Assembly (NCBI RefSeq): GCF_017301335.1
Contig: NZ_CP071247.1
Span: 124,001 to 188,000, forward strand
Reading direction: 5' to 3'
From: Marinobacter salinisoli
GTDB lineage: Bacteria; Pseudomonadota; Gammaproteobacteria; Pseudomonadales; Oleiphilaceae
DNA: 64,000 nucleotides
A program made the position numbers and the translations under genes. Every line of letters begins with the position of its first letter. Within the stretch, counting starts at the first letter, position 1. Under the pieces are notes generated by a model. The model was given only the letters and a program-made list of their open reading frames with translations, had not been told where the DNA came from and searched no databases. Shown piece after piece: positions 1-15,503 of the stretch.

Positions 1-739
1 TCAACCATGGAAAAGTCTGGCGCCCCATTAACACCACTGAAAAAAACACACTGGCAACAAGACCTACCGTACTACCTCTCGCAGAAGATAATATAAGAAC
101 CCACCACCAGAGACCGCCCGCTATAAGCACACAGAGGCGCCATAGCCCCGAGCGTTTCAAAGGACCAACAAACACGGCCAAGGGTAGAACAGGAAGCGCC
201 CAGGAGGCGATATGACTCCAGTAACGGATATTGTTAAAGCCCCAAGGCAGGTAATCGATTACTCTGAATTCACCTTCCTGCATTTTGCCCGCATAGATGA
301 TTAAAGCCACATAACCATACAACAGACACCCAACAACCAAGGGGTAAAGGAAGCTCTCTGCCAGGGACTGAACATTCGTCATCCCTGCACCTCCAAGCCA
401 GGCCGCCAAGAGAATCGGAAGAATAAAAAAACCGCCAAACATAACCGGTTCAACCCAGCCATGAAGCGCTCCGCCACTCGTCCCGGAAATGCTCATTGCG
501 GCCAACAAAAGGCAGCAAAACCCCAGGGCATTTCTATAGCCATTTAACGACTGGAAATTACAAATTAGACGAGGAAGCAGAACTAGAGTGAGACCGGCTA
601 ATATGCCTACTAAGAGGAAGCGCTGAATGGCATATAAATCAAAGTCCGAAGAAAAGAACCCTCCAAACAATACCAGGACCACCACGCTGGTCGCCAAAAT
701 CCCGAATGATGCTGGGTAGATCCAGTAGTTTATCTGCAC
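1..739 (-). CDS. O-antigen ligase / Wzy-like membrane protein, partial (3' end off the window)
   Basis: I translated the minus strand by hand. The frame is open for 246 codons from a GTG at 739 to the window edge, with an in-frame stop upstream near 778. An alternative TTG lies at 763, and neither start has a clear ribosome binding site. The product is highly hydrophobic with several membrane segments. It carries a segment ending SSARGSTVG after a Trp-rich helix, which resembles the RG motif of O-antigen ligase/polymerase (Wzy_C) proteins. Such proteins transfer glycans from lipid carriers on the periplasmic face of the inner membrane. It lies just downstream of tadD on the same strand, so a role in pilin or surface glycosylation is possible but only inferred from context. 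The C-terminal part cannot be seen. Confidence 0.6.
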   Translation of the reverse strand, partial: MQINYWIYPASFGILATSVVVLVLFGGFFSSDFDLYAIQRFLLVGILAGLTLVLLPRLICNFQSLNGYRNALGFCCLLLAAMSISGTSGGALHGWVEPVMFGGFFILPILLAAWLGGAGMTNVQSLAESFLYPLVVGCLLYGYVALIIYAGKMQEGEFRVIDYLPWGFNNIRYWSHIASWALPVLPLAVFVGPLKRSGLWRLCVLIAGGLWWWVLILSSARGSTVGLVASVFFSVVLMGRQTFPWL

Positions 740-818
740 GCTAGTACCACAACAGCTAAACAAAAAATGTTTGCGTTACGCTCAACCAAATTGCCAAAGT
801 CAAAGCGAGCACTTTCGA

Positions 819-1361
819 TTAGTTGCCGTCGTCCCAACCTTGTTGTGCATAACGCAGATTATCTTGGGCGAGACCAAAATAAGTGGGAGAGCTATCTATC
901 GCTCGCTGGAGGTACCACTTTGCGACATCAGTCTGCCCCTGGAGCAAGGCAAAATAACCTATATCGTTCATCGCATCAGGGGTGTCGGCCACCCTCCTCA
1001 ATGTCCGCTCGGCCTGCTGATGCTTACCAAGGCGGGCATAAAGTAACGCCAGATTTGACCATGCCCGCTTGAACTCTGGCTTCGCACGCACAGACCGCTG
1101 GAAGTAATGCTCAGCCAATATCAGGTCACCCTCCAAATAATGCGAATACCCCATATTGTTTAGTGTTTTGGCATCATCACGATTGACAACAAGGACCAAA
1201 CTATAATGATCACGCGCCTCGCCATATCTTTCCCAGAGGTCAAAAATGATACCCAGTGCGCTGTAGCATGCCAGTGGTGAGTGCTCATCCAGAGCTAAGA
1301 ACGGACCATCCTGCTCTGCGCCCCTGATTCTAACCTTCTGATTGTCTGCATGTGGTACCAC
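819..1361 (-). CDS. tadD: TadD-like TPR protein, C-terminal part (split by frameshift)
   Basis: This frame encodes tetratricopeptide repeats (for example around TLNNMGYSHYLEGDLILAEH and AWSNLALLYARLGKHQQAE), as in the C-terminal half of Tad assembly protein TadD. A GTG at 1361 could serve as a start. However, the frame stays open upstream to about 1483 and joins the preceding tadD N-terminal frame at a G9 homopolymer. One extra base in the tract would make a single protein of about 378 residues. I therefore read this as the 3' portion of one tadD gene rather than an independent gene. TadD proteins are outer-membrane-associated lipoproteins needed for Tad pilus assembly, probably as secretin pilotins or scaffolds. 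Confidence 0.75.
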   Translation of the reverse strand: MVPHADNQKVRIRGAEQDGPFLALDEHSPLACYSALGIIFDLWERYGEARDHYSLVLVVNRDDAKTLNNMGYSHYLEGDLILAEHYFQRSVRAKPEFKRAWSNLALLYARLGKHQQAERTLRRVADTPDAMNDIGYFALLQGQTDVAKWYLQRAIDSSPTYFGLAQDNLRYAQQGWDDGN

Positions 1362-1441
1362 CGCCGGCTCAGCAGAATCTGCGTCACTGGTCTCAGCCGC
1401 ATTGTACTGTCTCAGCCCCGCACCGCCTTTTTCAAGGCGAT

Positions 1442-1954
1442 TTAAACTGGAACGATATGCAGGTGTTTTTTTTGACCCCCCCCCTCAGGGGAGTTTTTCT
1501 CGTTTGCCGGAAACAGCTTGGCAGCCAAACGTTCCTGATCCTGTTCACGAATCGCTTCGAGGTCTGAAAATGCTCTGTGGACCTGACCTTTTCGCAACCG
1601 AAGCAGAGCTTTACCCATACGTGCAGGGGTATATTCGGGCTGAAGCTCCAAAGCATCAGAGTAGGCTTGCTCGGCCTCCCGGAAGGACTCCTTTTGCTCC
1701 TGAATAAAGCCAACCCGATACAACACTTCTGCACTTTCAGGAGCCTGGGCCAGTACCTTGATGTAGTGTTTCAGTGCCAGGTTGTAATTTCCTGTCTCAT
1801 AAGCCGTGTCGGCCCGCAAGCGCAGTTGTTCGGTATCTTCTGGCTCACTGAGATTGCCAACCGTTTTCCCTGTGCTCGCGCAGCCCGCCAATAAAAGCTG
1901 AGCAGACATCACCGCGACCGCAACACTCCGAAAAATTTGCGCCTTGAACTTCAT
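1442..1954 (-). CDS. tadD: TadD-like lipoprotein, N-terminal part (split by frameshift)
   Basis: The product begins with a lipoprotein signal peptide (LLLAGCAS lipobox, Cys about residue 25). TPR repeats follow (for example AEVLYRVGFIQEQKESFREA), matching the start of TadD, the Tad pilus assembly lipoprotein. After residue about 158 the frame enters a run of G then A and ends 12 codons later with a non-TPR tail (HLHIVPV). The TPR pattern resumes in another frame downstream. The gene is last of the recognisable tad genes and lies 41 bases after tadC. It may be a real frameshift, a phase-variable locus or a sequencing error in the homopolymer. As written, the product would keep its lipid anchor and first repeats but lose about half the protein. 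Confidence 0.8.
   Translation of the reverse strand: MKFKAQIFRSVAVAVMSAQLLLAGCASTGKTVGNLSEPEDTEQLRLRADTAYETGNYNLALKHYIKVLAQAPESAEVLYRVGFIQEQKESFREAEQAYSDALELQPEYTPARMGKALLRLRKGQVHRAFSDLEAIREQDQERLAAKLFPANEKNSPEGGGQKKHLHIVPV
1466..1484 (-). repeat. Homopolymer block G9-A8 in tadD (candidate slippage site)
   Basis: On the coding (minus) strand this block reads nine G, TC, then eight A. With nine G the upstream tadD frame runs to a stop at 1442. With ten G, or nine A, the frame continues as GGG TCA AAA AAA ACA and joins the downstream TPR frame without a stop. Long G tracts inside surface-structure genes are typical of slipped-strand phase variation. A run of eight A can also cause transcriptional slippage. 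The tract is equally a common place for assembly errors. Confidence 0.8.
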
Positions 1955-1995
1955 TGGCCTGAACTCCTACGACTTTTTGTTTGATAAAGAGCAGC

Positions 1996-2964
1996 TTAGA
2001 ACGCCTTATCCCACACTTGCGCGACCTTCAGGATTGAGGGCCCGACCGCAACAATGAAAAATGATGGCCAGATACAGAAAATGGTGGGGAAAATCATTTT
2101 TACGCCCAGTTTTGCAGCCTTCTCCTCTGCCGCCTGCTGGCGCTTATCCCTGAGCTCTTCCGCGTAGATTTTTAGTGTCTCCGCGATTCCCGTACCCAAG
2201 CGAATACTCTGGGTAATGGCTCCGTTCAAGCCGCGGATGTCCTCCAGCCCTGTGCGTTCGGAAAATTCCGCCAGAGACCTTTCGACACTAATACCTCCAC
2301 GAACCTTTTTGCAGACCAGGTCAAGCTCATGGGCAAGTTCGAAATGACTCAGCTTTATTTCACTGGCCACCCGCTGCAACGCTCCCATCAGCGTCAATCC
2401 GGACTCACAGCAAACCACAAGGAGATCCAGCGCGTCAGGAAACCCTCTGCGCATCAGGCTCTTTCGATTCGAAGCAATTCGATCAAGAACCAAGCTTGGA
2501 AGCAGAAAGGCAATACCGAGGAACCCAGCAACAGCATACATCGTGACGGCTTTTGACAGGTCAGGAAACGCCCGCAAAAAGACGTACACAGCCATCAGGC
2601 TGAACAACGTTAAAACGATTCTCACCCCGTTGTAGATGGCCAGCGCCGAATCATTATGGAAGCCAGCCTGGATCAGGGTACGCTTGACCTCATCACCACC
2701 GATCGAAAACGACCCGAGAAACGTTTTCTTGTGATTAAACGTGAGGCTGCCCTCAAGCCGTCCCTTCAGCTCTTGCTGGTATGACTCACCCTGACTCACC
2801 AGAGCGCCAACCCGCTTACTTCGCGAAGAATAAACACCCGAGACAAAATATTGAACCGCAATGGCAAGACTGAGCCCGGCAACACCCGCGATCAGATAAA
2901 TGCCGAACGCAGAATAGGTTTCGTTCTGAGTAAAGTCATTGATTAAGCCAACTAGAAAATCCAT
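1996..2964 (-). CDS. tadC: Tad pilus inner-membrane platform protein TadC
   Basis: This 322-residue protein has a type II secretion F domain in its C-terminal half (around residues 165-300). It has hydrophobic segments near residues 20-40 and 110-155, and a C-terminal one around FPTIFCIWPSFFIVAVG. The length and the DALDLLVVCCESGLTLMGAL motif match TadC/GspF-like platform proteins. TadC pairs with TadB in the inner membrane beneath the secretin and couples the TadA ATPase to Flp pilin polymerisation. It starts three bases after the tadB stop, which indicates translational coupling. Together with tadB and tadA it forms the core motor of the locus. Confidence 0.93.
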   Translation of the reverse strand: MDFLVGLINDFTQNETYSAFGIYLIAGVAGLSLAIAVQYFVSGVYSSRSKRVGALVSQGESYQQELKGRLEGSLTFNHKKTFLGSFSIGGDEVKRTLIQAGFHNDSALAIYNGVRIVLTLFSLMAVYVFLRAFPDLSKAVTMYAVAGFLGIAFLLPSLVLDRIASNRKSLMRRGFPDALDLLVVCCESGLTLMGALQRVASEIKLSHFELAHELDLVCKKVRGGISVERSLAEFSERTGLEDIRGLNGAITQSIRLGTGIAETLKIYAEELRDKRQQAAEEKAAKLGVKMIFPTIFCIWPSFFIVAVGPSILKVAQVWDKAF

Positions 2965-2967
2965 AGG

Positions 2968-3942
2968 TCATACATCCAAGCGAATCAATCTACCCAGCCA
3001 GAACACACCGGCCGCCATTCCCAGAAACCCGTAAAGCAAAAGCTCTCTTCCCTGCTCCGTGCCGGTGAGTTCCTGCGCATAGTCAGGGCTGGTCAAGTAA
3101 AGAAATGCAAACAGTGCGATGGGCATCAGAACCAGAACCCAGGCGGACATCCGCCCCTCTGCTGAGAGGGTTTTGACTTTCCGCTTGAAGGCAAACCGCT
3201 GGCGAATGATTTTAGACAGGTTTTTAACATTCTCAGCCAGATTTCCGCCGGTCTCCTTTTGAACGATCACCGCGCTGCTGAAGGCCATTGCGGATACTGT
3301 CGGCACTCGCTCAACAAAAAACAGCAAAGCGGCCTTGACGCTTTTCCGGTAATTTATATCATTGAAAATCTTATAGAACTCTTCAGCAATAGGCCCCTCA
3401 AGTTCCTCATAAGTCATTTTTATCGCATCTGGAAAGGCATGACCTGCCTGCAGACTTCGCCCGATAATTCCGAGTGCCTCGGGAAACTGTTCTTCAATTT
3501 TGTCTATGCGCTTGGCAAAGCGCTTGTTAAGGCTGGTGTAAAAGGCAGCGGGAATTACAACGAACGCAATCGCGGCAAGCCCAATCGAGTTCTTCCAGAC
3601 AAAAACACCCGCAGCCGCGAAAGCTGCCAACAGTAGGGCCTTGGCAATGTATCGATAGCCCAAATCGTCCGAGCCGGACTGTTCCAGGCGCAGGGTGATA
3701 TTTGCGATAAAGGGGAGCGCTTCCAGCTGACGTCCCCAGGTACTGGCCTTTTCCAGCCTATTCTTTCGAAATACCGATATTTCTGCCTCTTTTCCGCCAC
3801 GCTCCTCGCGAATGGCCTCAAGGCGCTCTTTGATGTATCGAGTGTCACCACGCTGGGGACGATAAACCGGCAGCATCAGTGCCTGTGACAGCAGAATGAC
3901 GGCCACGAACACACTAAGCAGAATCATCAAATCCACAGACAT
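2968..3942 (-). CDS. tadB: Tad pilus inner-membrane platform protein TadB
   Basis: This 324-residue protein starts with a membrane segment, followed by a basic cytoplasmic stretch (RYIKERLEAIREERGGKE). Two membrane segments near residues 105-140 precede the type II secretion F domain (EEQFPEALGIIGRSLQAGHA, about 150-280) and C-terminal hydrophobic helices. This is the TadB half of the TadB/TadC platform. It lies 14 bases downstream of the tadA ATPase gene and just upstream of tadC, the usual order in Tad loci. Identity is firm from the family pattern and context. Confidence 0.93.
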   Translation of the reverse strand: MSVDLMILLSVFVAVILLSQALMLPVYRPQRGDTRYIKERLEAIREERGGKEAEISVFRKNRLEKASTWGRQLEALPFIANITLRLEQSGSDDLGYRYIAKALLLAAFAAAGVFVWKNSIGLAAIAFVVIPAAFYTSLNKRFAKRIDKIEEQFPEALGIIGRSLQAGHAFPDAIKMTYEELEGPIAEEFYKIFNDINYRKSVKAALLFFVERVPTVSAMAFSSAVIVQKETGGNLAENVKNLSKIIRQRFAFKRKVKTLSAEGRMSAWVLVLMPIALFAFLYLTSPDYAQELTGTEQGRELLLYGFLGMAAGVFWLGRLIRLDV

Positions 3943-3956
3943 TTTGTGGGCCTCCC

Positions 3957-5282
3957 TTAAAAGCCGAAGTCCATTTTCGACTCGAACATACCAATGGGGA
4001 TTTCGACACCACAGCTCGAAAGCTTTTCATGAAAATGCGGAATCACACCAGTGGCGCCATACTCCCCCAACACATTGCCCTGCTCATCCCTGCCCTTTCT
4101 CTTAAAAGCGAAGATTTCCGAAAGCGTAATAACCTCTCCCTCCATGCCACATATTTCTGAAATGCTGACAACGCGCCTTCGACCGTCTTCGTGCCGCTGC
4201 AGCTGGACCACCAGGTCAATCGCCGAAGCAATTTGAGTACGAATATTTTTCACCGGGATATCCATACCCGTCATACACACCATATTCTCAAGTCGGCTGA
4301 GTGCATCGCGGGGGGTGTTGGCATGCAACGTGGTAAGGGAACCTTCATGACCGGTATTCATGGCGGTGAGCATGTCGAGCGCTTCCGCACCCCGAACTTC
4401 CCCAACAACCACCCGGTTCGGGCGCATCCGCAAACAGTTTTTTACCAGATCCCTGGCATTGATTTCCCCTCTACCTTCAATATTCGGTGGACGGGTTTCA
4501 AGGCGAACCACATGGGGCTGCTGAAGCTGCAATTCGGCAGAGTCTTCTACCGTAATTATTCGCTCATCAGAGGGAATGTAGCCAGACAGGATATTAAGAA
4601 GCGTGGTCTTCCCGCTGCCGGTGCCACCGGAAACCAGAACATTCAACTTCCCAACCACAGCCGCATGAAGTAACTGGCCCATCGCATCAGACATGGAGCC
4701 TCTTTCAATCAATTGCTCCGCTTTCAGTTTGTCTACGGTAAACCGGCGAATGGATAGCGCAGGCCCGTCTAAGGCCAGAGGACCAATAATTGCGTTGACC
4801 CGGGACCCATCCTTCAAGCGGGCATCCACCATGGGGCTGGATTCATCGACACGCCGCCCGACGCTGGACACGATTTTGTCGATAATGCCGAGTAAATGCT
4901 GATTATCATTGAACCGGAGCGGGAGCCGCTGAAGTCGGCCAAATCGCTCGACGTACACATTGTCGAAGCCGTTGACCAGAATATCTGAAATGCTATCGTC
5001 CGCCAGCAAAGCCTCCAGAGGGCCAAGCCCAAGCAACTCGTCATTGATTTGCTTGATGATTTTCTCACGGGCAACACGATTAACCGGACGGGGATCGGCA
5101 TCCAGTAACTGGTGACATGTCTTGGTGATCTGGTCCCTGGCACTGGACTCTTCCACATCGGATAATCGGGAAACATCCAACAAAGGCATGAGTTTTTCGA
5201 ATAATTCGAGCTTGACCGCCTGCTCCTGATCGGTAAGCACGTGTCTTGCATAGTCACTACCGGCATTTTCCATTGTTCCCAT
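3957..5282 (-). CDS. tadA: Tad pilus assembly ATPase TadA/CpaF
   Basis: This 441-residue secretion ATPase of the CpaF/VirB11 family has a Walker A motif ([12 protein letters not shown]) near residue 225. It also has an Asp box region ([10 protein letters not shown]) and the downstream segment [19 protein letters not shown]. The N-terminal domain contains [18 protein letters not shown], characteristic of CpaF. It powers Flp pilus extension, and perhaps retraction, at the inner membrane through TadB/TadC. The ATG at 5282 is preceded by a strong AGGAGGG box, so this start is preferred over the ATG three codons later. It lies between tadZ and tadB. Confidence 0.95.
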
Positions 5283-5353
5283 CAGACTCCCTCCTGCAAA
5301 TACTTCCCTGTCCCGTTTTCCAACTCAGATCGCGCGTTAAGTAACGGAAAGGC

Positions 5354-6601
5354 TCAACCGAACCACCGACGCCAAAAAGATTTTTGGGGCTGCTGGTCTT
5401 TCCCGAACTGTGCCTGCTGGGCGATTTCCTTAATTTGCTTGGTAATCCGCTTGTTGGGGGCAATCACAGACAGGGTTTTCCCTTGCTCCATAGCCAGACT
5501 GGCCAGTTTGTAGTCATTCCGTACCGTTACGATCTGATCCGTCCCGAGCGCCTTCTCGATCTCCTCCAACTTCAGACTGTTGGGATTCTTGAGGTATCGG
5601 TTCACGACGACCTGCATTCGCTCTTTCGGAATGTCCAGCTCACGCACTGCGTAGCGAATCAGATTGGCAGCGTCTCGCAGACAAACCACGTTGTCCTGCA
5701 CGACGATGAAAATATTATCCGCCTGCTGCAGGACAGGTAGTGACCAGTGCTCTGCCCCGCGGGAGAGATCAAAGACAACGGACTCAAAGGAAGTACGCAA
5801 TTTGAAAAGTAAGGTTGGAAGCTGAGAGAAGTCGAAATGATTCGGCCGCAGCATCCCAAACGGCGCTGCTGGCAGGAGCGTAATACCGGAAAACTTGCTC
5901 ATCAGCCCTTTGATTGCCGAATCATCCAGTGAGGAGGCCTCGCGTAGGGCATCCTGAAAATGATACTCGGGAGTTCCTTTAAGCATTGCTGACTGACTGG
6001 CATTCAGGTGGTCGCCGTCTGCCAGCGCCGCCTTACCACCGGTCATCAGGGATAACTGGTCTGCCAGCGACATGCTTAAAAAGCTCGCCCCCGAGCCGCC
6101 CTTGGCATTAATGACCACATTCAGCGGCGCCAGCTTCACTTCCGTCACGAGATGGTCAGCAATGCTGTAAATGGCCTGAATCAGGTCATCCAGATCTTCC
6201 GGCTTGCCTGATACGAAATCGATTACGCCCGCTCGCAACGCGCTTCGGGTGAGCTCCGGTGTGACATTATTGCCGATCACAATACAGTTCTTTACCTGTG
6301 GTGCCAGCTCTTGCACAAGGTGCAAGGCATGAGCCGAATCGTCAGGCATATGCAGAAGAACTGTCTGATGATCTTGAAGCTGTGCCGGATTCAGGTGTTT
6401 AAATCCAGCATGGGTCACGGTGAGGTTTGGAATCGACTCAAGCTCTCCGGCCTTCTCCCGCGCTGCTTCCGGCTGTATTGCAATAACAAGGACAGAAACG
6501 GGGAGTGCCAGAGGAACCCGGGTTTTGATTTCACTAGTTGCCTGACTTTGCAGAGGCTGTACGATCAGGTCATTCACTGTTCTCTCCTTGTAACTGCTCA
6601 T
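5354..6601 (-). CDS. tadZ: Tad pilus localisation protein TadZ/CpaE
   Basis: This 415-residue protein has an N-terminal receiver-like domain (about 30-145), then a MinD/ParA-type ATPase domain and a final Trp-rich tail (FWRRWFG). The nucleotide-binding loop reads KGGSGASF. The first lysine is present, but the usual Walker A lysine before Ser/Thr is replaced by alanine. Atypical loops are known in TadZ/CpaE proteins, which place the pilus machine at the pole or at discrete sites. The receiver-like domain is probably not a phospho-acceptor, judging from the lack of a clear acidic pocket. The ATG overlaps the stop of the upstream pseudopilin gene (ATGA), so the two are translationally coupled. 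Confidence 0.9.
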   Translation of the reverse strand: MSSYKERTVNDLIVQPLQSQATSEIKTRVPLALPVSVLVIAIQPEAAREKAGELESIPNLTVTHAGFKHLNPAQLQDHQTVLLHMPDDSAHALHLVQELAPQVKNCIVIGNNVTPELTRSALRAGVIDFVSGKPEDLDDLIQAIYSIADHLVTEVKLAPLNVVINAKGGSGASFLSMSLADQLSLMTGGKAALADGDHLNASQSAMLKGTPEYHFQDALREASSLDDSAIKGLMSKFSGITLLPAAPFGMLRPNHFDFSQLPTLLFKLRTSFESVVFDLSRGAEHWSLPVLQQADNIFIVVQDNVVCLRDAANLIRYAVRELDIPKERMQVVVNRYLKNPNSLKLEEIEKALGTDQIVTVRNDYKLASLAMEQGKTLSVIAPNKRITKQIKEIAQQAQFGKDQQPQKSFWRRWFG

Positions 6602-7077
6602 TCACACACCGTTGTGCCAAATCGGGTCGCACCGAGGCTCTCTCTTGGCAGTGTTGTGGTAAAACTTGGAGCATTCAGGTTGATAAAAAAACCCGGAATA
6701 ATCAGTTGATGCTGGTAGTTCTCAACACTCGCAGAGACAAGATCAATCTGCATTGCCGTGTTCGCAACTGCCCCATTCTCTGCAAGGTAGCGTATATTCA
6801 GGTTGTTCAGGGTGAGGTCAGTCACGAGCTCATCCATGCCATCAAGTGCAAGTGTTTTCAGACCATCAGGCGCCTCGGGCACAGCTTCCAGATCAGGCAG
6901 ACAGACCACCGCCAAACGCGCCGCTCGCCGGGAAATTTCTTCCAGAGTGTTATAGGTAAACATTAAGCGCCCCGTCTCAAATGCTGCGAAGATCATCAAA
7001 AAAACGACCGACGCCACGATCGCAAACTCGACCGCGTACACTCCGCACTGCTTTTTGAGGGCCTTGTTTTTTTTCAT
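6598..7077 (-). CDS. tadF: TadE/TadF-like minor pseudopilin
   Basis: The product (about 159 residues) has a short basic N-terminus and then a single hydrophobic helix beginning GVYAVEFAIVASVVFLMIF. The Glu sits five residues into the mature region, as in TadE-like pseudopilins processed by TadV. The preferred start is the ATG at 7077, which overlaps the stop of the preceding tadE gene. An earlier start at 7113 would lie inside that gene. TadE and TadF are minor pilins required for Flp fibre assembly. Choosing tadF rather than a second tadE is based on order only. Confidence 0.82.
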   Translation of the reverse strand: MKKNKALKKQCGVYAVEFAIVASVVFLMIFAAFETGRLMFTYNTLEEISRRAARLAVVCLPDLEAVPEAPDGLKTLALDGMDELVTDLTLNNLNIRYLAENGAVANTAMQIDLVSASVENYQHQLIIPGFFINLNAPSFTTTLPRESLGATRFGTTVCE

Positions 7078-7550
7078 AGCACCCTCATGGCGATGTTGAC
7101 ATCCATATTCCATGACAAGGATATCGGGTTACCGTAGAAGGCCGGTATTGAATTTCCGAAGATAGGCGTCCAATCATAATTGACCTGCACGGTAACTTGC
7201 TCTGAGACTGGATCCACGCCAATTTGAACATCGTTCTCATTCAGTCCAGGTAAAATTGACTCGGCACCATCAGCTGGCTGGGCAGTCGAACCATAAACAA
7301 TCAATCGAGTGGCGGCAGATCGAACCGCATCGGTCACAACCACATCCCCAAGACTGCCCGGTCGCGCCACATTAATGAGGTATCGAGACGCGTTACGTGC
7401 GGCACCGTACAACTCATGATACTGATAGAACGCCCGCCCCAACTCCGCAAAGGCAAAGAACAGCAAGAACAGCAACGGCAAAACCAGAGTCGCTTCGATC
7501 GCGGCCAAACCACGTTGACGCCTCATGGAATGTTGAATAGTCGCCGTCAT
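7074..7550 (-). CDS. tadE: TadE-like minor pseudopilin
   Basis: The 158-residue product has the TadE signature RGLAAIEATLVLPLLFLLFF: a basic N-terminus, cleavage before or near the Ala/Leu-rich helix, and Glu at about +5. A periplasmic domain follows. It overlaps tadG upstream (start within the tadG stop) and the next pseudopilin downstream, so the three are probably co-translated. TadE pseudopilins are processed by the TadV peptidase and are needed for pilus biogenesis. Residues LGRAFYQYHELYGAARNASRY are typical of the TadE domain. Confidence 0.9.
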   Translation of the reverse strand: MTATIQHSMRRQRGLAAIEATLVLPLLFLLFFAFAELGRAFYQYHELYGAARNASRYLINVARPGSLGDVVVTDAVRSAATRLIVYGSTAQPADGAESILPGLNENDVQIGVDPVSEQVTVQVNYDWTPIFGNSIPAFYGNPISLSWNMDVNIAMRVL

Positions 7551-8878
7551 GAGTCATTACTTCCCGGGTCACGATACAAAACGATCGTATAGGGCCCATT
7601 CTGATCAACCGCATCAACGACTGCCGGGCCAGTGCCACTGCAATCCTCAATAAACTCTCCAATCACAAAAGCTTCATTTCCTTTCTGGATGACCTCCTGC
7701 ATCAGGAAAAAACAGGCCATACCTTCGAACGCAAGGTTGTTCTGTCCGTTAGCTTCGCCATCACACTGCCCAACCAGTATCGTAAATTCCCGCCGAGCAC
7801 TATTTCCGTCCTCCCTCCACGATTGCGCCGGATTATGGGGACAGGAATATCCCTCTCCACTTAGACTACTCGAATAGGCATCTGCGTAATCCGCATAGCG
7901 GTACAGGGAAGGAGAATTGGTGTTATCAACGAGCGCACCACTCTCCTCGTAGACCACTTGTCCATCGACAACATCAAGCGGTGCGCCCACACACACATCT
8001 TTGTCCGGTGGATGATCCGTCGGATTAACGGTGCCATTGGCATAGCGACCCAGACGGGTATTCATACCCGTTGCAACGGGGCCCACAGTATTTCCCGGCT
8101 CGGTTTCAATATCTTCGTTGACCGTTCCCGGTCCGAAACAGGTTTCCGCCCCTACTGCCGCGCCCGCCATGGCATTTCGGATATCCGCCCCGCCAGTTAA
8201 GCCCGGAAGCCTGGCCAGCTGAAAATTCCCATCCCCGATTGCACTATCTGTGTTGCTGCTGATCTTCATCTGCATAATGGTGTTATTGGGATATCCGGAA
8301 GGGGTACTGGGGTCCCCTCCCTGGCACACCACCATCGGCAAAAGGTTATTGGAGCAGCTGAGCAGGGGCGTACTGGGACCGGCCACTGCGGAAGCGCGAA
8401 CGGGAAGCTCATTAAAACCCGCAATACCTGCGAGAAAGGCAGGTTGCCCAATATTTCGCAAACGCACCCGGACATAGTCAGCCGCCAGGTCGCCGGTTGA
8501 AATGAAAGGGTCTGGCTGGAGGGAAAACTCCACCGTGAGTTGATCAGTAACATCGGGCCCATCAAACGTCGCCCCAGCCAGATCAATCTCATCTCTTAAC
8601 GCCTCGTAGTCGTCGGAGGCGAGTACGTTAGTCAACATCGTCACGACTTCCCGACGTACCGCAGCGTGATCGGCTCCCAGGTCACGCTCCTTCGCCGCAT
8701 GGAGCGCCGTCGCATCAACGGCATTCTGTAGCCGAGCCTTGTTAAGAAATAAATACCCACCGTCCAGCGTCAGCGCACCTACAGCTAAAATCGCCGCCAG
8801 AGAAACCGTCACCAGAATAGCAACGGCACCACGCTGTCTTTTGGTGTCAGGATAACGATGGCATTGTTCGACGATCAT
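7547..8878 (-). CDS. tadG: Tad pilus assembly protein TadG
   Basis: This 443-residue protein has an N-terminal TadG/Tad domain: QRGAVAILVTVSLAAILAVG followed by LDGGYLFLNKARLQNAVDA. The rest is extracytoplasmic and has roughly nine cysteines (for example LLSCSNN, ETCFGPG, DKDVCVG, YSCPHNP, DCSGTG), which could form disulfides. I do not see a von Willebrand A MIDAS motif. TadG proteins anchor in the inner membrane and reach into the periplasm, where they are thought to stabilise the pilus. It overlaps tadE by four bases. Confidence 0.85.
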   Translation of the reverse strand: MIVEQCHRYPDTKRQRGAVAILVTVSLAAILAVGALTLDGGYLFLNKARLQNAVDATALHAAKERDLGADHAAVRREVVTMLTNVLASDDYEALRDEIDLAGATFDGPDVTDQLTVEFSLQPDPFISTGDLAADYVRVRLRNIGQPAFLAGIAGFNELPVRASAVAGPSTPLLSCSNNLLPMVVCQGGDPSTPSGYPNNTIMQMKISSNTDSAIGDGNFQLARLPGLTGGADIRNAMAGAAVGAETCFGPGTVNEDIETEPGNTVGPVATGMNTRLGRYANGTVNPTDHPPDKDVCVGAPLDVVDGQVVYEESGALVDNTNSPSLYRYADYADAYSSSLSGEGYSCPHNPAQSWREDGNSARREFTILVGQCDGEANGQNNLAFEGMACFFLMQEVIQKGNEAFVIGEFIEDCSGTGPAVVDAVDQNGPYTIVLYRDPGSNDS

Positions 8879-8932
8879 CCTTTCTCCCTTTCCCTGGAGT
8901 AGAGACCCTAATACGGCGTGATCGGACGCTTT

Positions 8933-9199
8933 CTAGTCTTCACCAATCGCCAGCGTTTTCCCACGAGCAGATGCTGGCGGATACGTGGATTTTTCATAGT
9001 TCGTTATGACTCGGGAGGTGACGTTTCCGTTCAACGTGTGAACTTTTCCCGCATTCCGGTACTCCGCTCCGGGGTCCAGAATTTGGCGCTGCTTCACCTC
9101 AGCAATCGTGCCCCCCAGTTCAACTCTCTCCAGAACATTGTTACTGCTGCAGGCGGTTAGAAAGACAGCGATACAAGACAACAAAATAGGCTTGTTCAT
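8933..9199 (-). CDS. Small lipoprotein of the Tad locus
   Basis: This 88-residue protein has a clear lipobox (VFLTACSS, Cys about residue 17) after a short signal peptide. The remainder is soluble and charged, with no domain that I recognise. It lies between the secretin gene rcpA and tadG on the same strand. That is the place where other Tad loci carry rcpB or cpaD, which encode small outer-membrane accessory proteins. A secretin-associated role is therefore plausible, but sequence alone does not show it. The start has an AGGAGG-type box upstream. Confidence 0.7.
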   Translation of the reverse strand: MNKPILLSCIAVFLTACSSNNVLERVELGGTIAEVKQRQILDPGAEYRNAGKVHTLNGNVTSRVITNYEKSTYPPASARGKTLAIGED

Positions 9200-9221
9200 T
9201 TAAGTTCCTCCTGAGCGCAGA

Positions 9222-10685
9222 TTACAGCGCATGTCCGTATTTATTGCCTGTACCAGCCATTTCAGCCGCTCGCATGCCGGGTTGCACCGCCGAGGATGAT
9301 GCCCCACCAGTGCTACGCTGCCCCGAATCTCCCTCAGTTTCGCGTTTAAACATTCGGCCGAGCAGATAAAACTCCAGATCAGTGGGCGGCACAAAGCCAT
9401 CCGTCGGCAACTGCAAGCCTTCGCGGGTAATCGGCTGGGCCAGTCGAGGAGTAACAAGAATAACCAGCTCGGTTTCCCCATTCAGGTATTCCTCACTGCG
9501 GAACAACTGTCCAAGAATGGGCACATCGCCCAATCCAGGTAATTGATTAACAGACTCACGAACGCGATTGCTGAGCAAGCCGGCAATAGCAATAGTCTGC
9601 CCGTCAGCAAGCTCAACCGTAGTCCGAGCGCTTCGCTTCACAATTGACGGAGTAATAATGGTTGCAGTTGTACCCGTGGGCGCGATCCCTACCGCATTCG
9701 CATTACTCAGCTCACTGACCAGCACATCGAGGTTCAGATTAATATTTCCATCCCCAAGAATTGTGGGAACGAATGACACACCAACACCGAATTCCTTGTA
9801 AGAAATCTTTATTCCGTCATCATCCGGCACCGGCACGGGGAACTCGCCACCGGACAAAAAGTCAGCCTGTTGACCACTCAAGGCTGTAATGTTGGGCTCG
9901 GCCAGAACGCGAGCAAGCCCCTGTTCCTTGGCTGCATCGATAGCAAAATCGTAGAGAAAACTGTTGGTCACGTATGAGCCGAAGATTCCGAATTCACTAA
10001 TCAGGCCATCCCCACCAATAAGCCCTCCCAGGAAGTTGCCGTCCTGGCCGACCAAGGAAAAGTCACTGTTGAGCCTGTGGGCAAGCTCCCGCTGAACCTC
10101 AGCCACGGTGACTTCCAGCATCACCTGCTGGCCACCGCCTACAGACATCATATTGAGAACTTCGCTGTTAGCGTCTTCTCCACCGGCTGCGAGTGCATAA
10201 CCATCAGCAAGGCGCTTTGCTGCTTCCATTCGCTCCGGGCTGGATACCTGACCTGACAGAACCAGATGCCCCTGGGAACTGAGCACACTGATGTTTTCGT
10301 CCGGCAGGAAGCGATAAAGTTTGTCTTTCAGTCCATTCAGATCGTGGGTGACTTCTATATCGATAGAATCAACCAGGCGATCGTTTTTATCCCAAACCAG
10401 GATGTTAGTGCTTCCCAATCTCTTTCCCACAACGTAAAGCTCAGAGCGTTCGGTCACCAGAATGTCTGCGATATCCGGATTACCCACAGACACACGGGCA
10501 GGTGTACTTTGAATCGGAATGGTTCGGGACTTGTAGATGGGAATAAGGTTGACCGATACTCCCAGGCCTGACCCACCCCCGGCCCAGACGGCGGCGCAGA
10601 GCAGGTTTGCAACCATAACCATCACAGCCGCCTGAAATAATCGAGCAGGCTGATTCTTTGCACTTCTCCACAATGACTTATCCAT
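9222..10685 (-). CDS. rcpA: Tad outer-membrane secretin RcpA/CpaC
   Basis: This 487-residue secretin has a signal-like N-terminus (residues 1-36) and a pilus-associated N-terminal domain with GNPDIADILVTERSELYVVG. A BON-like segment follows (LSGQVSSPERMEAAKRLADG). The C-terminal secretin domain contains VPILGQLFRSEEYLNGETEL and VILVTPRLAQP. It forms the outer-membrane ring through which Flp pili leave the cell. It is preceded by rcpC (CpaB) and followed by a small lipoprotein gene. Length and domain order match CpaC/RcpA. Confidence 0.94.
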   Translation of the reverse strand: MDKSLWRSAKNQPARLFQAAVMVMVANLLCAAVWAGGGSGLGVSVNLIPIYKSRTIPIQSTPARVSVGNPDIADILVTERSELYVVGKRLGSTNILVWDKNDRLVDSIDIEVTHDLNGLKDKLYRFLPDENISVLSSQGHLVLSGQVSSPERMEAAKRLADGYALAAGGEDANSEVLNMMSVGGGQQVMLEVTVAEVQRELAHRLNSDFSLVGQDGNFLGGLIGGDGLISEFGIFGSYVTNSFLYDFAIDAAKEQGLARVLAEPNITALSGQQADFLSGGEFPVPVPDDDGIKISYKEFGVGVSFVPTILGDGNINLNLDVLVSELSNANAVGIAPTGTTATIITPSIVKRSARTTVELADGQTIAIAGLLSNRVRESVNQLPGLGDVPILGQLFRSEEYLNGETELVILVTPRLAQPITREGLQLPTDGFVPPTDLEFYLLGRMFKRETEGDSGQRSTGGASSSAVQPGMRAAEMAGTGNKYGHAL

Positions 10686-10717
10686 AGCTACTTCTTCCTA
10701 AAGTTTGGTGCACATCC

Positions 10718-11500
10718 TCAGTCCACAGTGACGGTTTGCATCGAAACACCACGAATCACTTCAATCTTTCGTTTCTCGTAACTGGGCGCCAGCCGGCGAG
10801 GCTCCACAGCCGCAACCACAGGTTCCGGTTTTGCCTCAGCCAACTCTACCGCGCTCTTGTCGTTGGGATTCCGCAGAGCGAGCTGAATACTGCCCCGACT
10901 TCTGGCGTTCATCAGCACCTCGGCCTGTTCCAGGGAAACTTCCAGAGTGACAGCCCTCACCAAAATTGGCTTGTTGGCATCGGTTCCGGTCACCTGATCG
11001 ACGGCTAGCACCTTTAGATTACTGAGAACGACATCCGTAGATGCGTTCTCACGGGAGCTCCGAGTCATCAACACATCGACCCGATTACCCGGAAGAAGAA
11101 AACCGGCAACCCCCACAACATCGTCAACCCGGATGGTGACCGCACGCATGTTGGATTCGATCAGACTGGCCAGAACACTTCCTTCCCCCTTTTCCGCCAA
11201 CTTTTCGGGGCGAACGAAATCCCCTTCCAGCATCGGGTGCCTGGCCACTTTACCCACAACCGCCTCCATGCTCTGACTCACATTCTTCGGCGCCATAGAC
11301 CGGGGAAAGCTGCGTACAGAGAGATGCTTCTGCTCCAGAACCGTTCCCGCCGACACAGACACAGACATGGCAATGGCCTGCACTTCATCCACTTTGACGT
11401 CTTTCGGCCGATTATTATCAAGCCAGTTCTTGGCCATGAATACGGCTATGCCCGCAAACAGCACCGACAATACGGTGAAGCCTAGTGATCGAGAATTCAT
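10718..11500 (-). CDS. rcpC: Tad pilus assembly protein RcpC/CpaB
   Basis: This 260-residue protein has an N-terminal membrane anchor (FTVLSVLFAGIAVFMAKNWL). A SAF-like domain (SAGTVLEQKHLSVRSFPRSM, about 50-110) and the RcpC/CpaB core (RVDDVVGVAGFLLPGNRVDV) follow. CpaB/RcpC is a periplasmic partner of the secretin and is thought to bind peptidoglycan or gate the channel. It is four bases from overlapping the upstream AAA ATPase gene and lies 32 bases before rcpA. Identity is well supported by domain order and context. Confidence 0.92.
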   Translation of the reverse strand: MNSRSLGFTVLSVLFAGIAVFMAKNWLDNNRPKDVKVDEVQAIAMSVSVSAGTVLEQKHLSVRSFPRSMAPKNVSQSMEAVVGKVARHPMLEGDFVRPEKLAEKGEGSVLASLIESNMRAVTIRVDDVVGVAGFLLPGNRVDVLMTRSSRENASTDVVLSNLKVLAVDQVTGTDANKPILVRAVTLEVSLEQAEVLMNARSRGSIQLALRNPNDKSAVELAEAKPEPVVAAVEPRRLAPSYEKRKIEVIRGVSMQTVTVD

Positions 11501-12870
11501 AATGATCCGCCCTCCTCATTGAATGTGGCCACAGCAGCTGGAAACGGACAGCGACTGGCTTCCACGAAATAGATATTCCAGGCTCGCTCGAGCAGCTCTG
11601 GTTCGATAATGCTGGATAGTCCGTTAAACCGAATTTGATCTGACACGATGGAAAGCAGGTCCCGAGGATGAGACGGAAGCATGTCTAACTGATTCGTGGG
11701 GTAACACTGCTGAACCAACCACCGGCCAAGATGATGTTTGTCATTGAGGCCCATAACACGGCATTGCTGCTGCCAGATTGCAACAAACGCTTCATCATCT
11801 ATTGCCTTGAATTCAATCTTGTAACCCAGGCGCCGAAGGAAGGCGGGATCAAAGATGTCCTGGGGACTGAGGTTGGTGGAAAACAAGAGGTTCTGCTCGA
11901 AGGGCACTTCAAAATGCGCCCCACTGGGTAACGACAGAAAATCACGAGCCTCTTCTAAAGGCACAATCCACCGATTAAACACCTCCTTGGCACTGATTTT
12001 CTGTCGGCCAAGATCGTCAATCAAAAGCACGCCGTTATTGGCCAGAAGGCCAATGGGCGCCTTGTGAAGCCTTGCTTTTGGGTCATGACTGATGTCGAGC
12101 ATAGAGAGCTCAAGCTCCCCACCCACGACCACCAGGGGGCGATGGCAGCGATACCAACGGGGATCACTGACTTGCGCAAAAAGATCGTCGTCTCGAAAAG
12201 TGCTATCAATTCTCTGGTGTATCTGAGGATCAAAAATCTGCACGATTTCCCCACCCATCTCTACGGCATGGGGAATCATAACCTCGTCACCGAAGAGACG
12301 ATTCAGCTGGCGACAGATAAAGCTCTTTCCCGTGCCAGCGGCACCATAGATCAACACCGCGCGCCGGGAATTTATGGCAGGACCGATCTGATCAATTAAA
12401 TCGGGCTGCACCACCGTGGTATCAAAGACTTCCAGCAGGCGTTGACGGCCGACAGCCTGACGCCGACTGGATTGCTGGATACAAATGCGACGGTATTCCT
12501 CGAGAGGAACAGGCGCCTTGCCAACATATCCGCTCAGCTCAAGGGCCTGACGCGCCTGTTGCCGGCCCGCAGCACTGAGCGCCACCCGCATTTGACCCTG
12601 CTCGCTGTTACGATTTTCAACCAGGCTGTTGGCTTTGGCCTCTGCGACCAGCTCCGCAATTACGTTGCCGCTGAGCCCCATCAACTCGGCCAGCAATTTG
12701 ATGGAGGCCACTTCGCGCTTTAACAGGTGCTTGAGCAAAAGGCCCCGAAGCAACGGGCCGGGCAGACCGGTTTCGAAAACACTATGAGGCGTAGGAAGGG
12801 ACACCGCAGGCGGGGCGCCAACTGGCTCAGTAACCTTCGATTCTTCTAGCTGAATTGACTTCAACGGCAA
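11497..12870 (-). CDS. AAA ATPase with N-terminal winged-helix-like region, Tad-locus associated
   Basis: This 457-residue protein has an N-terminal helical region that reads like a DNA-binding winged helix (KREVASIKLLAELMGLSGNV, about 45-115). A single AAA+ domain follows, with Walker A GAAGTGKSF near residue 180, Walker B GVLLIDDLGRQ near 285 and arginine-rich sensor segments. It is not one of the classical Tad proteins, yet it overlaps rcpC by four bases and so is surely co-expressed with the pilus genes. It could be a remodelling ATPase for the assembly machine or a regulator. I do not recognise a named gene. The start is TTG, at 12870 or two codons later at 12864, where an AAGGAG box is better spaced. 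Confidence 0.75.
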   Translation of the reverse strand: MPLKSIQLEESKVTEPVGAPPAVSLPTPHSVFETGLPGPLLRGLLLKHLLKREVASIKLLAELMGLSGNVIAELVAEAKANSLVENRNSEQGQMRVALSAAGRQQARQALELSGYVGKAPVPLEEYRRICIQQSSRRQAVGRQRLLEVFDTTVVQPDLIDQIGPAINSRRAVLIYGAAGTGKSFICRQLNRLFGDEVMIPHAVEMGGEIVQIFDPQIHQRIDSTFRDDDLFAQVSDPRWYRCHRPLVVVGGELELSMLDISHDPKARLHKAPIGLLANNGVLLIDDLGRQKISAKEVFNRWIVPLEEARDFLSLPSGAHFEVPFEQNLLFSTNLSPQDIFDPAFLRRLGYKIEFKAIDDEAFVAIWQQQCRVMGLNDKHHLGRWLVQQCYPTNQLDMLPSHPRDLLSIVSDQIRFNGLSSIIEPELLERAWNIYFVEASRCPFPAAVATFNEEGGSL

Positions 12871-12961
12871 GCTCCTTCCAGTTGGAGCAATAAAACCTAG
12901 TCAAAAATACACACCATTAATTTGGAGCAAACTTCTGACTTCCCTTGTGCATCGGGCCTGC

Positions 12962-13471
12962 TTACCCGATCTGTAATGCATAAAACAGCCATCCTAGGGC
13001 CAGCGCCGGCGCGTAGGGCACCCTCACGCCTGCGATTTCAGAACTCTCGGGCGCAATGTAGGTGCGAAAAGCCACCATCATCCTGTAACGTTTGAGAGTG
13101 ACCAACAGGGGCTGCCACCCCATTCGAAGAGTTGCGATCAAAGGCGAGGTAACAGCCCCGAAAGCAATCCCGAGCGCGGAAATCATCAGTGCCTGGACAG
13201 GATCGTAAAAACTGCACACAGCCATCATCAACTTAACATCGCCCCCGCCTACCCACCTGAAGCGGAAAAGTGTGCCAAATATAAACAAAGCACAGAGTGA
13301 GCCCCCCAGACCGCTTAGCATTCCAGAAATACCCGACGAGTAACTCTGGAATACCAAACCCATCAAAAGACCTACAACAGACAGAGCATTCGGAATTTTT
13401 TCCCGAAAAATATCGCTCGTCACAGCGAGCAAAAAAATCACCAAAACTACCTTGAAAGAAATTGAATCCAC
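12962..13471 (-). CDS. tadV: Prepilin peptidase TadV/CpaA (A24 family)
   Basis: This polytopic membrane protein of about 169 residues carries the two aspartates of A24 prepilin peptidases, in TSDIFREKIPN and in GGGDVKLMMA. It would cleave the Flp pilin and the TadE/F pseudopilins at the inner membrane. It lacks the methylase domain of PilD, as expected for TadV. I prefer the GTG start at 13471 because a GGGAGG box sits five bases upstream. A TTG at 13483 would place that box inside the gene. It lies between flp and the AAA ATPase gene. Confidence 0.9.
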   Translation of the reverse strand: MDSISFKVVLVIFLLAVTSDIFREKIPNALSVVGLLMGLVFQSYSSGISGMLSGLGGSLCALFIFGTLFRFRWVGGGDVKLMMAVCSFYDPVQALMISALGIAFGAVTSPLIATLRMGWQPLLVTLKRYRMMVAFRTYIAPESSEIAGVRVPYAPALALGWLFYALQIG

Positions 13472-13485
13472 GCCGCCTCCCAACT

Positions 13486-13517
13486 AAAAACGTCCAGCCC
13501 CGGAATTCCTGGGCTGG
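13486..13517 (-). terminator. Stem-loop with T tract between flp and tadV
   Basis: On the minus strand the sequence CCAGCCC (13517-13511), a ten-base loop and GGGCTGG (13500-13494) form a 7-bp GC-rich stem. ACG and five T follow. It lies just after the flp stop. It probably acts as a partial terminator that lets flp be made in excess over the assembly genes. Confidence 0.6.
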
Positions 13518-13532
13518 AGTTTCGCCAAAGAC

Positions 13533-13697
13533 TTAGCTTACAGCGTCAGCAAGCGTGTTGATTCTAGCCGTCGCATTGGTTCCTAGGAGTTGGAAGGCAC
13601 CGACCATGCCACCGACAACCAAACCACCAGCGATCGCGTACTCAACCGCACTCAAGCCGTCCTCGTCCTTCCACAGAGCCTTCAGAAATTCTTTCAT
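13533..13697 (-). CDS. flp: Flp-type pilin (54 residues)
   Basis: I translated this short frame by hand; it encodes 54 residues starting MKEFLKALWKDEDG. The segment LSAVEYAIAGGLVVGG follows the glycine at position 14. This gives the Flp signature of processing after Gly, Glu at mature position 5 and Tyr at position 6. The C-terminal part is a hydrophobic helix ending with a small polar tail. It is the major structural pilin of the Tad system, cleaved by TadV and polymerised by TadA/B/C. It is the first gene of the tad block, with a candidate CRP/Vfr site 148 bases upstream and a terminator-like hairpin immediately downstream. Confidence 0.95.
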   Translation of the reverse strand: MKEFLKALWKDEDGLSAVEYAIAGGLVVGGMVGAFQLLGTNATARINTLADAVS

Positions 13698-13844
13698 TTT
13701 TTGGTCCCTCAAAATTTAAGCTAGATACTAAATGCTCGAATTCAGGCTCGAGCCACATCCCTGAGTACCACTGACGCCAAACGCCAACCTCAATTTAAAC
13801 CTAGGGCATGTATCTTTTTGTTACAATCTAAAACAAACCCAAAT

Positions 13845-13860
13845 TGTGACACAGATCACA
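13845..13860. promoter_or_regulatory. CRP/Vfr-type binding site upstream of flp
   Basis: TGTGACACAGATCACA matches the symmetrical CRP consensus TGTGA-N6-TCACA at all ten conserved positions. It lies between flp (start 13697) and the end of the L,D-transpeptidase gene (13867). It is therefore well placed to activate the tad operon. No confident sigma-70 core promoter was recognised downstream of it. Confidence 0.65.
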
Positions 13861-13866
13861 ATCCAC

Positions 13867-15276
13867 CTAAGATGCTTTCCCGTATATGTCGTTTGCCACC
13901 AGCACGCTTCCCGAGGTGTCTACCCAAACTGGCATATACACAAAATGGACGGAAACATCGCTTTCAAGGGCCTCGTGCCAATCAGGGCGTTTTTGAAAGG
14001 AAAGCCCCCGGTATCTCCCAGGTTTTTTAAATATCGCATCGACTAGGGACCCAGCATCGGCCACCCTGACACACCCATGGCTGAGTGCCCGCCGGGATTC
14101 ACCAAAAAGTTGCTTCTGCGGCGTATCGTGTAAGTAAATGGCCTGAGTCTGTTGCAGATTGAAACGAACCCTTCCCAAGGGGTTGTTGTTACCGGGTATC
14201 TGTCTGAGCACGTAACGGCCAAGGATCCGGGTATCTTCATGCTGCCAGAAGTCTTCCCAGCCCAGAGGCGAAGTAACGTTACTGGCGTCCCGCGGAAACA
14301 GTTCGAACCCGCGCTTCTTGAGAGCAAAAGGGTCTTTTTGCAGTAAGGGCAACAACTCTGTCTTCAGTATGCTGACCGGTGGGGTCCAACTGGGATTGAA
14401 AGTCACGCTTCCGAAACGGCTGTTGAGCCTTGGTGTCGGGCTGTCGGGCTTCCCGACGATGACGGGCATAACCAACTCAACCCGCCCCGCCTCGATAAAT
14501 AGCAACTCGAAATGCGGAATGTTCACCAACACAGTTCGATCAGGCATACGTTTTGGCAACTGCAGCCACTGTCTGAGACTGTAACGCATGGCTGGGAGCG
14601 GATTACCTCTGAATTTCAGGTGGCGAAGGGTGTGCTCATCCAGGTGACCGCTGACGTCGAGATTGTGCTGTCTCTGGTAATCTTTCAAGAGAAGCACCAG
14701 GGACGGATCCCAGACCGTTCGCTCTTGCATTCCCGGTGGCAAGGCATGGTCGAGAATATTTGCCAAGTAGGTTCGAAAGACCGCCACCTCTGGGTGTGAC
14801 TGCCCGAGGCTTAACCCGGTCAGCAATCCGAACTCCGGCAGTGGCACTGTCTGACGGCGCATCTCGGCGGAGATCGCCTTCCGAAGGCGAGAAAAACCGG
14901 CGTATTCCGGTGTGAGTTCGTTAACCAGTTCGGGTAGGCGATGCTGCTTTATCGCCCTGGACAATATCTCGCCTGGCGACGGCCCATTTCGTTCGGACCG
15001 CAATTCGGCCCTCAGCGCCAACACCTTTTTGGTCGCTGCGTTTATTTCTTCTTCCGATGGCGTTTCGATGTCAGCGGAAAGAAATCCCCAATCTTGCAGC
15101 AAGGATACCCACTCCGGGGTCAGGTCGGTGAGTTCGGGGGAAAGCCATCCATACTGGTGAATAAAGGTGGAACTGGACTGATCCGGCAACTGTATGGCGC
15201 TGGCCTTTGCCGCAAAGAGCAACACTGCCAACAGCAGCCCTGCCGTGTTTCCGAATCTACCCATTATAGCTTCCAT
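13867..15276 (-). CDS. L,D-transpeptidase family protein (YcbB-like)
   Basis: This 469-residue secreted protein has a signal peptide (GLLLAVLLFAAKASA). A helical scaffold region (about 30-200) and a peptidoglycan-binding-like segment (LVLLLKDYQRQHNLDVSGHL) follow. The C-terminal YkuD catalytic domain contains YLHDTPQKQLFG and the active-site motif RRALSHGCVRV, where the Cys is the nucleophile. Such enzymes make 3-3 cross-links in peptidoglycan or attach lipoproteins to it. The start is the ATG at 15276, or the ATG at 15264. It ends 170 bases upstream of flp on the same strand. A read-through contribution to the tad block cannot be excluded, but it may simply be a neighbour. Confidence 0.9.
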   Translation of the reverse strand: MEAIMGRFGNTAGLLLAVLLFAAKASAIQLPDQSSSTFIHQYGWLSPELTDLTPEWVSLLQDWGFLSADIETPSEEEINAATKKVLALRAELRSERNGPSPGEILSRAIKQHRLPELVNELTPEYAGFSRLRKAISAEMRRQTVPLPEFGLLTGLSLGQSHPEVAVFRTYLANILDHALPPGMQERTVWDPSLVLLLKDYQRQHNLDVSGHLDEHTLRHLKFRGNPLPAMRYSLRQWLQLPKRMPDRTVLVNIPHFELLFIEAGRVELVMPVIVGKPDSPTPRLNSRFGSVTFNPSWTPPVSILKTELLPLLQKDPFALKKRGFELFPRDASNVTSPLGWEDFWQHEDTRILGRYVLRQIPGNNNPLGRVRFNLQQTQAIYLHDTPQKQLFGESRRALSHGCVRVADAGSLVDAIFKKPGRYRGLSFQKRPDWHEALESDVSVHFVYMPVWVDTSGSVLVANDIYGKAS

Positions 15277-15475
15277 CCCTGGCGCTCAAGTGCCCGCTTA
15301 ACAGGCCTCATTTGCTATCAGGTTAGTCAGAAAAACTGTCAGCGTTGACGATCAACCTCTCAAATTTTGTTTCTCTCCTCGGTACACCACGGGTCAAGCC
15401 CCTGCTGATATGCGTATACGCCGGTTCTCTGGCCAGAACCGGGTTCGCCCTTCAGGCTTCAGAAGGCCTGAACGC

Positions 15476-15503
15476 AATAACCCCCGGAAAGCCGGGGGTT
15501 ATT
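15476..15503. terminator. Bidirectional intrinsic terminator after dctA
   Basis: A perfect 12-bp stem (AATAACCCCCGG and its complement) with an AAAG loop lies 46 bases past the symporter stop codon. It can terminate the aspA-dctA transcript on the minus strand. The rest of 15277-15548 shows no gene. Confidence 0.8.

Follow-up and report, generated by a model that had tools for sequence, protein, structure and literature searches.

The window analysed here comprises bases 124001-188000 (64,000 nucleotides) of the complete, single-contig chromosome of Marinobacter salinisoli (3,716,531 bases), and within it tadD, the minus-strand gene for the lipoprotein TadD of the Tad pilus, is split into two reading frames in the assembly. 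By our reading of the sequence, the frame is lost at nine Gs, the dinucleotide TC and eight As (1484-1466). We tentatively attribute this split to a recent loss of frame at a slip-prone run, predicted to leave the gene OFF and to be reversible, and we give this reading a probability of roughly 0.45; we see in it a chance event at a mutable site, still young enough to revert, rather than a switch maintained by selection. The upstream half of the gene (1442..1954, minus strand) runs from an ATG at 1954 to a TAA at 1442 and encodes 170 amino acids, comprising a signal peptide, a lipobox with Cys25, three N-terminal TPRs and an out-of-frame tail. The downstream half (819..1484, minus strand) is shifted into the -1 frame with respect to the upstream half and extends from the tract to a TAA, with 221 codons from stop to stop, a first GTG at 1361 and the C-terminal TPRs. 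This second frame, which contains no stop, opens directly behind a TGA adjoining the G run, and TPR family matches were found in both halves. The frames diverge at the G9 run (1476..1484, minus strand), which is followed after the TC by the A8 run (1466..1473, minus strand), and the split proposed in an earlier note on this DNA is therefore borne out.

The nearest relative, Marinobacter sp. F4216, carries tadD as one open frame of 378 amino acids, in agreement with the ~378 residues that had been anticipated for a restored protein. The tadD DNA of the two genomes is ~96-97% identical, and over the tract a single A/G substitution and a gap of one base separate them, the A8 run being the same. 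Where the window has nine Gs, F4216 has ten purines, interrupted and with a G6 core, so that the window tract is one base shorter. From an F4216-like start, the shortest path to the window allele is the loss of the A separating the G stretches plus one substitution, rather than slippage in a pre-existing long run; a path from a G10 ancestor needs one step more. Between the window and F4216, the upstream half has a dN of 0.017 and a dS of 0.150, and the downstream half a dN of 0.013 and a dS of 0.053. On these values tadD appears to be free of clear decay, and dN/dS would indicate only that the break is recent. The downstream half is indeed uninterrupted, as the earlier note had it, with no stops and with TPR matches.

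Among 124 Marinobacter genomes, including this one, a close tadD was found in F4216 only. Our count of runs began from 22 loci, two of which are the same F4216 gene and 20 of which belong to other, more distant Marinobacter; among the matches listed, 18 of these 20 have an RcpA match within ~10 kb, and two are without one nearby on the contig. No stop falls within the match in any of these tadD-like loci (20/20), and after one locus was dropped, for which an overlapping opposite-strand frame had been picked, none of the other Marinobacter tadD frames held a G or C run longer than six (19/19). Outside this count stand one likely tadD in another genome and eight loci from genomes in which the secretin match reaches 4.4e-32 at best, two of the eight showing a TGA within the tadD match.

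The gene product has the features of the TadD family, namely a lipoprotein signal with its Cys and TPR repeats, a location in a tad cluster with a secretin, and a PilF/PilW-like TPR fold. Cys25 is invariant across eight aligned TadD-like proteins. The predicted structure of F4216 TadD (mean pLDDT 78.2) contains confident TPR blocks at residues ~41-147 and 228-371, and since the type IV pilotins PilW and PilF align over both of these blocks, the split would sever the TPR groove. Residues 154-216 form a predicted disordered linker (pLDDT <50), the DNA of which, placed by alignment and predicted structure, occupies 1308..1495 (minus strand). In the eight-protein alignment the tract lies inside an 80-residue linker between flanking helices, where the other seven proteins, all distant homologs, have 0-34 residues. 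The predicted disorder of this linker would allow it to tolerate changes in the frame tract. Protein searches returned the F4216 protein and distant homologs only, and the upstream half matched itself alone. The idea that the linker harbours a mobile or repeated element was considered and rejected, as the 171-base stretch is single-copy in this genome and in F4216, other matches being 14-27 bases long with E values of 0.085 or weaker. A second tadD copy in this chromosome was likewise rejected, the sole other match being a 279-aa frame at 23% identity, which we take to encode a PilF-type protein. The Pseudomonas aeruginosa pilotin TadD (PMC10499894) is similarly a TPR lipoprotein encoded next to the RcpA secretin gene in a tad cluster, whereas the Marinobacter protein is longer, has a predicted disordered linker of ~60 residues between its two TPR blocks, and is split. 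P. aeruginosa TadD was absent among the Foldseek and VIA-align matches listed, an absence that excludes nothing.

Under the favoured reading, a recent one-base frame change in the sequenced cell line would have left tadD in two halves and the cell without a working TadD pilotin. The 170-residue product would retain the lipid anchor and three TPRs while losing the remainder of the TPR groove. By analogy with the P. aeruginosa protein (PMC10499894), we infer that TadD binds RcpA, that the secretin depends on it for assembly, and that the short product of the window is inactive; without full TadD, RcpA would fail to assemble into its secretin and the cell would lack Tad pili. The G9 run is also presumed to be slip-prone, so that revertants to the ON state would appear with increased frequency as a culture grows.

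Several observations weigh against this reading. The sole G9 run sampled coincides with the sole homopolymer break, a coincidence expected from a read error no less than from slippage, and read errors cluster at C9 runs. The linker is without an outgroup, and the tract may have changed in either direction. The dN/dS of 0.25 downstream against 0.11 upstream is not a significant difference (20 upstream and 12 downstream changed codons, Fisher p 0.44). MutS is intact in this genome, as a 930-codon open frame, and a mutator background was set aside on this gene, the one looked at. Finally, a rate of 9.3 x 10^-9 is cited for a G14 tract in non-mutator Neisseria (PMC5953494), and given so low a rate for a G14 tract, a G9 tract may slip rarely.

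The first alternative, that tadD is intact in the strain and that sequencing or assembly gave the run one base too few, seems to us rather unlikely. We surveyed frame breaks in 328 kb of this chromosome against 356 kb of F4216, in which a homolog of at least 65% identity was present for 213 of 324 F4216 frames. Split candidates numbered four among the 213 in this genome and six among 222 in the reverse comparison; frame breaks are not in excess, and these low counts rule out a broadly error-ridden assembly. What favours a local error is that tadD is the only homopolymer break among the 213 genes compared and that no other G9 occurs in the 328 kb sampled, runs of nine C or G being a classic error site, with every other tad frame open. 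Of the three further split candidates, two lack any run of at least five bases within 40 bases, and the third (66% identity, overlapping frames) has a C6 run ~22 bases off. Genome-wide, 18 G tracts reach at least eight bases (12 G8 and six G9, none longer), a spread that resembles that of F4216 (15 G8, four G9 and one G10) and argues against a read error. Within recognisable genes, four G8 tracts keep the reading frame, and together with the few frame breaks they suggest that the assembly is good. Of the five G9 tracts outside tadD, four lie between the surrounding long open frames, one of them between Mur ligase and flavoprotein genes, and the fifth is close to the ends of two frames. The tadD tract thus stands out by its location.

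The earlier note had proposed possible phase variation of the Tad pilus. A dedicated switch of this kind would be a contingency locus, maintained by selection, whose G run slips both ways and thereby turns the pilus on and off. We regard this as doubtful. The tract is a coding G/C run of at least nine bases that sets the frame, and it reaches the poly-G cut-off of 9 applied to the Neisseria phasome, in which pilC tracts span G9-20 (PMC5953494); it also lies within a predicted tolerant linker and leads into a downstream half without a stop. Like Neisseria pilC, tadD carries a coding G tract of at least nine in a pilus biogenesis gene, but 145 of 205 pilC sequences were counted as phase variable (PMC5953494), whereas the Marinobacter tract is found in one genome only. 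A second parallel is offered by two sortase-pilus genes of Bifidobacterium breve (pilus clusters bbr_0113 and bbr_1889), which intragenic G tracts divide into two frames and slippage reunites, tract length deciding whether a single protein results (PMC9187656). In B. breve, however, mixed lengths were measured and several species of the genus share such tracts, whereas in Marinobacter we have one assembled length, a G6 core in the relative, and a Tad pilotin in a Gram-negative organism.

The comparison of runs speaks, with two alleles only, against a kept contingency locus. The nearest relative has just its interrupted G6, the 19 other Marinobacter tadD frames are without any G/C run beyond six, and a long run, whether kept or varying in length, is thus absent from the relatives compared. 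G9 runs are not enriched either: the single one in the window compares with 1.33 on average over 100 shuffles, as base composition alone would give, and the six in the genome fall far below the ~67 runs of at least nine G or C expected from a dinucleotide estimate. MutS is intact, and the loss of an A accounts for the gap more simply than slippage does. Overall, we see no sign of an evolved switch, and no case of Tad pilus switching via a coding homopolymer in Marinobacter was among the best matches of an open-access literature search (one library).

A further possibility is that some full-length TadD is made by recoding, either through ribosomal -1 slippage on A_AAA_AAA or through transcriptional slippage on the A8 run, such that the pilus works, perhaps with two TadD forms. 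We consider this distinctly improbable. In the upstream frame the run is read as CAA AAA AAA, an A_AAA_AAA heptamer, and a -1 slip there leads into the downstream frame; the A8 run is identical in F4216, and hairpins are predicted on both of its sides. In the RNA fold, a hairpin of eight pairs (1475..1494, minus strand) is formed by ACTCCCCT and the G run, and a second stem-loop (1409..1453, minus strand), predicted in F4216 too, lies downstream of the A8. The latter is oddly placed, beginning ~12 bases (outer stem) or 24 bases (inner stem) past the A8, which is beyond the usual distance. The fold z is only -1.97 in the window and -3.69 in F4216, the two spanning stretches offset by ~14 bases, so that the z-scores are not strictly comparable. 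As an observation in its own right, inverted repeats abound in the DNA of the TadD linker, and equal folding was reached in just one of 200 shuffles of the F4216 stretch. Rfam gave no matches over 16 kb.

The published comparisons for recoding point in both directions. In Citrobacter rodentium, an A11 run in tssM (tssM1) yields two forms by transcriptional frameshifting of ~20-25% (PMC4256274), and the likeness extends to a secretion-apparatus gene, a frame change beside an A run and an open downstream half; low-level recoding of this kind is possible in tadD by analogy. The difference is that slippage on the A11 was measured, whereas the Marinobacter A8 is at the detection limit, slippage by Escherichia coli RNA polymerase having been undetectable on runs of fewer than eight As (PMC6260861). 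Transcriptional slippage on A8, which the earlier note had offered as an alternative, is accordingly judged weak. G/C runs are described as not prone to transcription slippage (PMC5574713), and heptamers of the A_AAA_AAA type as weaker than A_AAA_AAG in E. coli (PMC5009743), so that the A8 run and its heptamer, although present, are borderline by these sources (PMC6260861, PMC5009743). Least probable, in our estimation, is that the linker acts as a frame-setting cassette, in which the two hairpins and the conserved A8 slip site would give a full-length pilotin and a short lipid-anchored form in both species, the G run would set the default (long in F4216, short here), and pilus output would be tuned by DNA slippage together with recoding.

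The tad cluster surrounding the split gene lies on the minus strand from ~13.7 kb down to 0.8 kb of the window, with tadD last, and its remaining genes are open. Upstream of tadD in the direction of reading, the frame at 1996..2964 has a T2SSF domain and is named TadC from its position, and that at 2968..3942, without an NCBIfam match, is named TadB from its place in the cluster. They are preceded by a TadA/CpaF ATPase (3957..5282), whose top NCBIfam match, TIGR03819, is under its cut-off, a TadZ/CpaE-like frame (5354..6601) and three pseudopilin-like open frames (6598..8878; TadF, TadE and TadG-like). An RcpA-like secretin, the presumed partner of TadD, occupies 9222..10685, RcpC/CpaB (TIGR03177, over cut-off) 10718..11500, a prepilin peptidase (PF01478) 12962..13483, and a putative Flp-type pilin frame, open in both the window and F4216, 13533..13712; all are on the minus strand. 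Eleven of the 12 other frames of the tad locus align with F4216 without gaps or stops. The exception is 6598-7113, for which a stop is met in the F4216 alignment; as this stop lies upstream of a shared Met-Lys-Lys start, the long start of the frame is probably wrong.

Two further minus-strand frames accompany the cluster. One, at 11497-12870, encodes 457 amino acids within the cluster and has as its sole match a weak AAA ATPase domain, under the curated cut-off. The other, at 2-763, follows tadD and encodes a membrane protein, presumably O-antigen ligase or polymerase-like, which is retained in F4216 as a 501-aa frame. The tad island (window positions 1-15500 plus ~1 kb to the left) is mostly 94-99.6% identical to F4216 per 500-base step, with dips to 86-93%, and the stretches flanking it are ~77-89% identical; its GC content is 0.52, against 0.58 for the sampled genome. 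From these sequence comparisons, the island looks like a block recently exchanged between the two species. Identity falls below that of nearly all neighbouring stretches at the pseudopilin-like frames (6501-7500, minus strand; 86-93%) and at the pilin gene (13501-14000, minus strand; 90%).

Should the split prove to be a read error, the tadD gene call in this genome would deserve a flag. If instead the frame change is true, whether this marine bacterium produces Tad pili, which elsewhere serve in attachment and biofilm formation, would hinge on a one-base event in a mutable run, and a pilotin would join the pilus genes that carry slippage-prone coding runs.
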